From assembly GCA_020723085.1 (NCBI GenBank), contig DYJN01000010.1, positions 1-64,000 of the forward strand: DNA of 64,000 nt. The letters run 5' to 3'. The notes beneath the pieces were generated by a model. That model was given only the letters and a program-made list of their open reading frames with translations. It did not search any database and was not told the DNA's origin. Positions 1,559-5,297 of this stretch are shown piece by piece (the stretch's first letter is position 1; each line of letters opens with the position of its first letter). The position numbers were made by a program, and so were the translations under genes. Source of the stretch: Arcobacter sp. (GTDB lineage Bacteria > Acidobacteriota > Terriglobia > Bryobacterales > Bryobacteraceae).

Positions 1559-1903
1559 ATGGCATGTGATCTCGTTCTCTCCCTCGAGATCATGCCCGAG
1601 GACGCCCGCCGCCTGCTCCACGAGGGCAAGGCTCGGCTCATCGACGTCCGCGAGCCTCACGAGTATCAGCTGGCGCGCATCGACGGCGCCCAGTTGATCC
1701 CCATGCATACGGTGCCTCACCGTTTGCACGAGCTCGAAGCGGCGTCCGACGAAAGCCTGCTGATCGTGTACTGCCATCACGGCGTGCGCAGCCTGAGCGT
1801 GGTGGAGTGGCTCCGCAGGCTGGGCGTCGAACAGTGCGTTTCCCTCATCGGCGGCATCGACCTCTGGCGCCGGCAGATCGATCCTCAGGTGCCCCGCTAC
1901 TGA
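1559..1903 (+). CDS. Single-domain rhodanese
   Basis: A 114-residue single rhodanese domain. The active-site loop CHHGVRS (Cys72) has the six-residue form of sulfurtransferase rhodaneses, and IDVREPHEYQLARIDGA near residue 28 is the conserved first half of the fold. Such enzymes pass a sulfane sulfur as a cysteine persulfide to thiols or protein acceptors; some bind selenium in the same way. No signal peptide, so cytoplasmic. A TAGAAT box at 1530-1535 could be its -10, without a good -35. Its stop is followed after 6 bp by the ArsC/Spx-like gene with the in-frame UGA, so the two are probably one transcript. The product class is clear; the acceptor is unknown. Confidence 0.88.
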   Translation: MACDLVLSLEIMPEDARRLLHEGKARLIDVREPHEYQLARIDGAQLIPMHTVPHRLHELEAASDESLLIVYCHHGVRSLSVVEWLRRLGVEQCVSLIGGIDLWRRQIDPQVPRY

Positions 1904-1909
1904 AGGCCG

Positions 1910-2251
1910 ATGACGCAGAAGCCGAGGCTCTACATCAAGCCCCCTTGAACCACCTGCCGCAAAGCCAGGAGTTTCCTGGCCCAGCAGGGAGAGGAAGCCG
2001 ATGCCGTGGATCTCTCGAAAGGCCTCAGCGTCGAGCAGCTCGACCGCCTGATCGGCAGCCGCGACTACCGCGAGTTCCTCAACCCGAAGAACGAACTGTA
2101 CCGCCGGATGGGCATGAAGACCAATCCTCCGCCGCGCGAGGAAGCGCTGCGTCTGATGAGCGGGAACCCGAACCTCATTCGCCGGCCGATGCTCGTGCGA
2201 GGCTCGAAGGTTCTGATCGGATTCCATGAACCCGATTGGCGCGAGGCGTAG
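1910..2251 (+). CDS. ArsC/Spx-family thioredoxin-fold protein, probable selenoprotein (in-frame UGA = Sec13)
   Basis: Read from the ATG at 1910 (GAAGG just upstream), the frame gives 12 codons, UGA at 1946-1948, then 100 further codons to the stop at 2249-2251: 113 residues, the normal size of an ArsC/Spx protein. The strand-helix entry reads LYIKPP-U-TTCRKARSFL, so the UGA takes the place of the first Cys of the family's CxxC redox motif and Cys16 is the resolving residue. The C-terminal half is intact, including NPNLIRRPMLV (Arg91, Arg92) and LIGFHEPDW, the usual end of the fold. A standard caller would report only the 81-residue piece from the GTG at 2006, which lacks the active site. A SECIS-like hairpin follows the UGA. 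The likely role is a thiol/selenol redox reaction, such as arsenate or disulfide reduction; the substrate is not determined. The alternative is a pseudogene with a Cys-to-stop mutation. Confidence 0.72.
1953..1988 (+). promoter_or_regulatory. SECIS-like hairpin downstream of the in-frame UGA
   Basis: The lower stem is CCTGC (1953-1957) with GCAGG (1984-1988). An internal loop of 6 and 3 bases follows. The upper stem is a perfect 7-bp GCCAGGA (1964-1970) with TCCTGGC (1974-1980), closing a GTT loop (1971-1973). The lower stem begins 4 bases after the UGA, and 22 bases separate the UGA from the apical loop. Known bacterial SECIS elements lie within the coding region right after the UGA, with the loop roughly 16-37 bases away and a G at the start of a small loop; this hairpin meets all of these. 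Binding of SelB is inferred, not shown. Confidence 0.65.
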
Positions 2252-3448: not shown

Positions 3449-3865
3449 ATGGCGGAATACGAGCTGCTCGATCACACGGCGGACACGGGGTTCCGCGTCT
3501 GCGGGGCGAGCCTGGAGCAGCTCTTCATCCGTGCCGCCGAGGCGCTGGTGGACATCGCCGTCGATTCCAGCCGTGGGCAGGCGCGCGAGCGGCGCACGGT
3601 CCGCTGCTCGGGTCCCACGGTCGAAGACCGCCTGGTGAACTGGCTCAACGAAGTCCTGTGGCTTCTCGATGGGGAGCGGTTCCTGCCGGCGGTCATCGAA
3701 GAGCTGGCGTTGGAGGGGGAGTCCGTGCGGGCTATTGTGTGCGGGGAGCCCCGGGACGACGCGCGCCACCGTCCCCGGATTGTCGTCAAGGCGGCCACCT
3801 TCCACCAGCTCGTCATCCGTGAGCACAATGGCATGTGGGAGGCGGAGGTCTTCCTCGACATCTGA
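3449..3865 (+). CDS. Archease, activator of RtcB RNA ligase
   Basis: A 138-residue archease. The opening YELLDHTADTGFRVCG and the end EAEVFLDI are the family signatures that carry the metal-binding acidic residues. In archaea and bacteria archease speeds guanylylation of RtcB and widens its nucleotide use. The gene ends one base before the ATG of rtcB at 3867, so the two are almost certainly co-translated, as in many other genomes. No signal peptide or membrane segment. The length and both ends fit the family, so the start at ATG 3449 is secure. Confidence 0.93.
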   Translation: MAEYELLDHTADTGFRVCGASLEQLFIRAAEALVDIAVDSSRGQARERRTVRCSGPTVEDRLVNWLNEVLWLLDGERFLPAVIEELALEGESVRAIVCGEPRDDARHRPRIVVKAATFHQLVIREHNGMWEAEVFLDI

Positions 3866-3866
3866 C

Positions 3867-5297
3867 ATGCCGATCGAACACGTCGACGAAGTCCGCCACC
3901 GGATTCCGAAGGGCGCCCGTCACGGCATGCGCACCGATGTGCTGTTTTACGCGAGCGGCTCGATTCTTGAACAGGTGGAGAAAGACCGCGCGCTCGAGCA
4001 GGCGATGAACGTGGCCTGCCTGCCGGGCATCGTCGGACCGTCGCTCGCCATGCCGGACATCCACCAGGGGTACGGCTTCCCCATTGGCGGCGTGGCGGCG
4101 ATGGATTGGGACAGCGGCGTGGTGAGCCCCGGCGGCGTCGGTTACGACATCAACTGCGGCGTCCGGCTGATCCGCACGAATCTTGAGCAGGACGAGGTCC
4201 GCGCGCGGCTGAAAGAGCTCGTCGATCAGGTCTTCCGCGACGTGCCCTGCGGCGTCGGCGGGAAGGGTCATCTCGACATCACGGAAAAGCAGCTCAACCA
4301 GGTTCTCGAGCAGGGCGCCGGATGGATGGTGGAGCATGGCTACGGCGAGCCTTCCGACATCGAGCACTGCGAGGAGCACGGATGCCTGGCCGCAGCCAGC
4401 GCCGGGGAAGTGAGCGCGCGCGCGAAAGAGCGTGGCCGTCCGCAGATTGGTACGCTCGGCAGCGGCAATCACTTTCTCGAGATCCAGTTCGTGCACCGCG
4501 TGTATGACGAAGAGGCCGCGCGCTGTTTCGGGCTCCACGAAGGCCAGGTCGTGGTGCTGATCCATAGCGGATCGCGCGGCCTCGGCCATCAGGTCTGCAC
4601 CGATTTTCTGGCGCAGATGGGGGCGGCCATGAAGAAATACGGCATCACGCTGCCGGACCGGCAACTGGCCTGCGTGCCGATTCAGAGCCCCGAGGGGCAA
4701 TCGTATCTGAAGGCCATGCGCGCGGCGGCGAATTTCGCCTGGGCCAACCGCCAGGCCATGCTGCACTTCGTGCGAGGATCGTTCCAGAAGGTCTTCGGCA
4801 GGCGCGCGCAGCTCGCTCTCATCTACGACGTCTGCCACAACATCGCCAAGCGCGAGAAGTACGAATACCAGGGGCGCACGGTAGATGTGCTGGTGCACCG
4901 CAAAGGCGCCACACGCGCCTTCCCGCCCCGTCATCCCGAGATCCCCGCCGGCTACCGCGCCGTAGGCCAGCCGGTGCTGATCCCCGGCAGCATGGGCACC
5001 GCGTCGTGGGTGCTGGCTGGATGCGAGGGCGCGATCGAGGAGAGCTTCGGCAGCGTCTGCCACGGCGCCGGGCGCCTGCTGAGCCGCCATGCGGCCAAGC
5101 ACGGGCGCGATGCACGAGCCGTGCAGCGCGAACTCGAGCAGCATGGCATTCTCGTCCGCAGCGAAACGCGCGACGGCATCATTGAAGAGGTCCCCGAAGC
5201 ATACAAGGACGTGGACGAGGTCATCGAGGTGGTGCACCAGGCGGGGCTGGCGCGCAAGGTGGCGCGGCTCCGTCCGATGGGCGTGATCAAAGGCTGA
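3867..5297 (+). CDS. rtcB: RtcB RNA-splicing ligase
   Basis: A 476-residue RtcB, which joins RNA 2',3'-cyclic phosphate or 3'-phosphate ends to 5'-OH ends through an RtcB-GMP intermediate, with two Mn ions. Motifs seen are GVGYDINCGVRL (metal-binding Cys), GSGNHFLEIQ and HSGSRGLGHQV (metal-binding His), and SFGSVCHGAGR, whose His is very likely the one that carries GMP. A longer open frame runs upstream to 3669, but that part overlaps archease and is not RtcB-like; the ATG at 3867 gives the normal N-terminus PIEHVDEVRHRIPKG. Paired with archease, it points to repair of cut tRNA or other RNAs. Confidence 0.96.
   Translation: MPIEHVDEVRHRIPKGARHGMRTDVLFYASGSILEQVEKDRALEQAMNVACLPGIVGPSLAMPDIHQGYGFPIGGVAAMDWDSGVVSPGGVGYDINCGVRLIRTNLEQDEVRARLKELVDQVFRDVPCGVGGKGHLDITEKQLNQVLEQGAGWMVEHGYGEPSDIEHCEEHGCLAAASAGEVSARAKERGRPQIGTLGSGNHFLEIQFVHRVYDEEAARCFGLHEGQVVVLIHSGSRGLGHQVCTDFLAQMGAAMKKYGITLPDRQLACVPIQSPEGQSYLKAMRAAANFAWANRQAMLHFVRGSFQKVFGRRAQLALIYDVCHNIAKREKYEYQGRTVDVLVHRKGATRAFPPRHPEIPAGYRAVGQPVLIPGSMGTASWVLAGCEGAIEESFGSVCHGAGRLLSRHAAKHGRDARAVQRELEQHGILVRSETRDGIIEEVPEAYKDVDEVIEVVHQAGLARKVARLRPMGVIKG

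Follow-up and report, generated by a model that had tools for sequence, protein, structure and literature searches.

The stretch of DNA under study (hereafter the window; 64,000 nucleotides) is the start of contig C53 in an assembly of 4.19 Mb that is 100% complete, and its host is a Bryobacteraceae-type member of the Acidobacteriota. Near the beginning of its forward strand, a rhodanese gene is followed by a predicted selenoprotein gene, and the following features can be placed:

1559..1903, + strand: gene for a single-domain rhodanese with the motif CHHGVRS (PF00581, 62 bits), lying 6 nt upstream of the ATG of the next gene and probably co-transcribed with it
1910..2251, + strand: predicted selenoprotein gene, 113 aa, ArsC/Spx-like, with U13-T-T-C16 (from Pfam, orthologues, and predicted fold)
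1946..1948, + strand: in-frame TGA, by all indications read as selenocysteine (Sec, residue 13) in place of the attacking redox Cys (from 44 readable orthologues)
1955..1957, + strand: TGC codon of Cys16, which is likely the resolving residue of UxxC and is the same in every orthologue read
1964..1980, + strand: bacterial SECIS hairpin with stem 1964-1969 / 1975-1980 and loop 1970-1974 (AGUUU) (from hairpin analyses and the bSECIS model)

The frame of the second gene opens with ATG at 1910, runs through a TGA at 1946-1948, and closes with TAG at 2249-2251; with TGA translated as U, it gives MTQKPRLYIKPPUTTCRKARSFL...DWREA. An earlier, sequence-only reading had held that a full-length ArsC/Spx protein is obtained here through that single UGA, that the UGA falls at the first redox Cys of the family, and that the 113 residues form a clean frame on both sides. 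All of this was borne out, i.e., the read-through product scores 61.3 bits against Pfam ArsC (PF03960; cut-off 24) over residues 8-112, the TGA sits at the family's first redox Cys (UTTC), where 8 of 44 orthologues carry a Cys codon, and the frame on both sides of the TGA is preserved in relatives down to ~50% identity. The same reading had expected such genes to be missed by gene callers, and standard-code ORF calling indeed returned just an 81-aa downstream ORF (GTG 2006) in this frame. As the product is the sole PF03960 match in the whole genome, gene calling that stops at the UGA loses the whole family from the annotation. Both strands of the window were also scanned mechanically for TGA codons followed by a SECIS-like hairpin and a long open frame; of the seven matches, the TGA at 1946-1948 had the top hairpin score and was the sole one with a recognisable redox motif at that place; the other six were dropped for want of such a motif.

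The hairpin downstream of the TGA (GCCAGG-AGUUU-CCUGGC), for which the sequence-only reading had not looked, combines a 6-bp stem with a loop of 5 nt whose second base is G; the distance from UGA to loop is 21 nt and the energy -13.8 kcal/mol. In the bSECIS model (PMC13188914), the loop measures 3-9 nt, has a G within its first two positions, and lies 16-37 nt from the UGA, the upper stem has 4-16 bp, and the MFE is <= -7.5; the hairpin at 1964-1980 lies within all of these published constraints. Within a set of 61 relatives' genomes, a hairpin with G in the first two loop positions was present in 29/29 TGA forms and, at that place, in 0/7 Cys forms; an eighth Cys form (L069) retains, on visual inspection, a short stem whose loop consists of A alone, without a G. 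The stem has undergone compensatory changes (one pair occurs as C-G, U-A, and G-C, another as G-C and A-U), 95% of the cells are paired in the in-register set with every slid control far lower, and the covariation amounts to 0.279 vs 0.152 +/- 0.023 in shuffles and <=0.08 in slid controls. The Ser codon in the loop is AGT in 26 of the 29 TGA forms, AGT making up 3.9% of the Ser codons in twelve window genes, and random synonymous recoding reached the observed hairpin score in 2.5% of trials and the observed energy in 0.9%. Deeper TGA forms have a GGUCU-type loop, and the single-sequence fold of the region is only modestly unusual (z -2.05). RNAalifold predicted no structure on all 23 SECIS rows, because loops of differing length shift the arms out of register, and the support for structure was taken from per-sequence hairpins and the in-register subset instead of the full 23-row alignment.

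Orthologues were found in 36 of the 61 genomes at E ~1e-30 or better, with TGA at the site in 29 and TGC/TGT in seven, and a draw of 396 phylum genomes plus one genome-contig scan contributed a further seven TGA forms and one TGT form. Alignment over the codon, which the sequence-only reading had named as a check, thus covers 44 readable orthologues with conserved flanks, 36 with TGA and eight with TGC/TGT, and none of the 44 has any other codon there; one further sequence (L076 in G188), whose N-terminal part is out of frame, was left out of the codon count. A Bryobacteraceae MAG congener (JANWVO010000032.1) carries an orthologue with 72% identity. Decay of the downstream frame, which the same reading had raised as a sign against it, was not seen: compared with four congeners, dS downstream of the TGA is 0.45-1.1 and dN 0.10-0.19 (dN/dS ~0.17-0.25), and, judged from these rates, the codons there are under purifying selection. 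With the frame kept on both sides in relatives and dS exceeding dN, the open frame is not due to chance. On the 44-row tree, Sec and Cys forms are intermixed; the best tree requires five or more switches of the label, and well supported branches force two of them. This mix of orthologues, with the SECIS gained or lost together with the codon, offers a clean natural series for the study of Sec/Cys exchange. Two scans of viral contigs gave no relative of the protein, and plasmids gave distant relatives only, at most 35% identical among the matches listed.

A search of the genome for the sel genes and tRNA-Sec, likewise proposed beforehand, found them all, namely, selA (490 bits), selB (306 bits), selD (357 bits), and a tRNA-Sec with anticodon TCA (74 bits; ARAGORN call tRNA-SeC(tca)). 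In the selB gene (L003, G000:C72), the reading frame shifts within a run of five G, after IGGG; as selB is whole in four congeners (G001-G004), an error in sequence or assembly is probably the reason for the frame change. In every TGA genome among the 61, selA exceeds the cut-off and tRNA-Sec is matched at >66 bits. The two orthologue-bearing genomes that are devoid of a selA over the cut-off (G053 and G034) both have the Cys form; G053 also shows no strong tRNA-Sec match, and one is present in G034, whose assembly is 10% contaminated. Five Cys-form genomes (G006, G044, G048, G049, and G050) retain selA and tRNA-Sec, therefore codon and machinery are not strictly coupled, and loss of Sec without loss of the system is possible. 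The SelD of the host genome (L048, G000:C3:26081-26986, - strand) is a selenoprotein too, with a UGA codon of its own (KAAGUASKLS) and, downstream, a GTCCAA-AGGTT-TTGGAC repeat; an MFE fold of this short region favours a different pairing. A rhodanese encoded elsewhere in the genome, not in the window (L090, G000:C131:4523-4756, + strand), has a TGA at its catalytic Cys (VIVTL-U-TQGGRA) and then a strong hairpin; it scores below the NF041203 cut-off, and its sequence makes it a probable second selenoprotein of the genome.

Were the TGA at 1946-1948 a true stop, the locus would be a pseudogene or the result of a sequencing error, or else would encode a short peptide ahead of an independent ORF, which agrees with the 81-aa ORF being all that standard-code calling finds in frame. 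However, the TGA recurs across several families, in genomes whose assemblies are independent of one another, and the frame downstream is under purifying selection. Moreover, the TGA is replaced by Cys codons only, and the 81-aa ORF would lack strand 1 and helix 1 of the fold. A true stop is thus highly implausible. Decoding of the TGA as Trp or another ordinary amino acid, via a changed code or a suppressor, has the open frame past the TGA as its sole support and a negligible chance of being right, given that the upstream rhodanese gene itself terminates in TGA (1901-1903), that relatives replace the codon by Cys and in no case by Trp, and that a tRNA-Sec and a SECIS hairpin are present. From codon, hairpin, and gene content, it is almost certain that the TGA is read as Sec.

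The predicted fold of the 113-aa product has a mean pLDDT of 92.9; among solved structures, it comes closest to an ArsC-related protein, YffB, Spx, and ArsC (Z 14-17.5). The product stays below the cut-offs of all NCBIfam models compared, with 58.3 vs 75.05 bits for TIGR01617 (Spx/MgsR), 34.6 vs 85 bits for NF041106 (ArsC_rel_Se_1), and 33.4 vs 106 bits for TIGR00014. Two known functions within this fold have to be considered. A redox-sensing RNA polymerase regulator of Spx/MgsR type, with Sec in the switch, is suggested by the best solved-sequence matches, which are Spx, by the CxxC switch and shared fold of Spx, and by TIGR01617 being the top NCBIfam match. Nevertheless, this match falls short of its cut-off and the Spx equivalog models score lower still, while Gly52 of Spx, the RNA polymerase contact, has no clear counterpart in the aligned product, and such a regulator is improbable. 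A Sec form of a true arsenate reductase of the glutaredoxin-type ArsC appears very improbable. The arginine test for arsenate reductase concerns Arg60, Arg94, and Arg107 of E. coli ArsC; in the alignment, Arg60 is Asn, Arg107 is without counterpart, and Arg94 alone is kept, so that, with two of the three arginines missing, arsenate reduction is not supported. Membership of the Pfam ArsC family, a fold match of Z 14 to E. coli ArsC, and the occurrence of a UxxS Sec-ArsC (TIGR00014) in metagenomes (PMC13188914) speak for this function, and the low TIGR00014 score and the lack of any ars gene among the neighbouring genes examined speak against it. The only correction to the sequence-only reading concerns its name for the gene, ArsC/Spx-like: the product is kin to both proteins, yet there is no support for its acting as an arsenate reductase or as a regulator of Spx type.

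The most economical role for the product is that of a thiol-disulfide (selenol) oxidoreductase rather than an arsenate reductase, and this role is likely. Judged from the sequence, its TGA is read as Sec with the help of the directly downstream SECIS hairpin, in a genome equipped with the Sec machinery, giving a thioredoxin-like protein of the ArsC/Spx/YffB fold with U13-x-x-C16 at the start of helix 1. The selenolate of Sec13 may then attack a disulfide, a persulfide, or another oxidised sulfur substrate, upon which a selenenyl-sulfide would form between Sec13 and Cys16 and be re-reduced by a cellular thiol system. Taken as a whole, an intact selenoprotein gene at 1910-2251 that encodes a Sec13 oxidoreductase of the ArsC/Spx/YffB fold is very probably the best explanation of the locus.

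The rhodanese encoded by the adjoining upstream gene may act together with the selenoprotein, and this neighbour is a first testable hint of function. A rhodanese gene with the motif CHHGxRS lies upstream on the same strand in 12 orthologous loci from families f1, f3, and f7, among both Sec and Cys forms, and since the whole genome has just five PF00581 matches, the repeated adjacency is unlikely to arise by chance. No rhodanese neighbour turned up in the majority of orthologous loci, and the loci without it share, by eye, no neighbour gene. A functional partnership between the two proteins is conceivable on this evidence, with the balance slightly against it. That they form a dedicated system of the Acidobacteriota, in which the selenol would resolve a persulfide, or else a form carrying selenium, at the Cys of the rhodanese, is doubtful; if true, it would give the transfer of sulfur or selenium a selenoprotein partner. 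Genes for a class-III aminotransferase, an alpha/beta hydrolase, archease, and RtcB are also found around the gene, and the aminotransferase and hydrolase genes travel with the rhodanese/selenoprotein pair in some relatives. The archease and RtcB RNA ligase genes are adjacent to each other downstream (window 3449-5297, + strand).

ArsC-like selenoproteins, UxxC forms among them, were reported between 2005 and 2008 (PMC1088965, PMC1794560, PMC2398784), and a 2026 review lists both UxxS (TIGR00014) and UxxC (NF041106) ArsC forms (PMC13188914). The statement in the sequence-only reading that Sec forms of ArsC-like proteins are known from marine metagenomes was correct: 'Arsenate reductase 2' of the GOS ocean metagenomes is listed as a selenoprotein with cd03032 and UxxC (PMC2398784). 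It resembles the protein described here as a bacterial Sec form of an ArsC/Spx-type family with UxxC, and, being set beside it by description only, may or may not belong to the same subfamily. NF041106 proteins share the Pfam family, the UxxC motif, and a similar SECIS hairpin, but have ~30% identity to the product, which with its 34.6 bits is outside that model; true members in G007, G008, and G017, genomes of the same family, score 121-132. NF041106-type ArsC-like selenoproteins with an RPGU or RRGU motif and a GCAAGAGTTTCTTGC-type hairpin were observed at L059, L060, and L061 in three same-family genomes. TIGR01617 (arsC_related, Spx/MgsR) matches the product over its full length and has the same fold, but with CxxC in place of UxxC, and the product is under its curated cut-off with no sign of a regulatory role. 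YffB (PA3664, 1rw1) is similar in fold (Z 15.9) and 28% identical, with the LLN..GTTWRK and FLN..NELYRR regions aligned, but E. coli YffB has CxxI, no resolving Cys, and no Sec. E. coli K-12 ArsC shares the fold, the position of the catalytic Cys12, and Arg94-Pro; it differs in having Arg60 and Arg107, and the product instead has Sec and a resolving Cys. UxxC ArsC-like selenoproteins are thus already known, and what is new here, as delimited by sequence comparison, is an acidobacterial subfamily under the cut-off of the NCBI seleno-ArsC model, which is hereby added to the ArsC-like selenoproteins.
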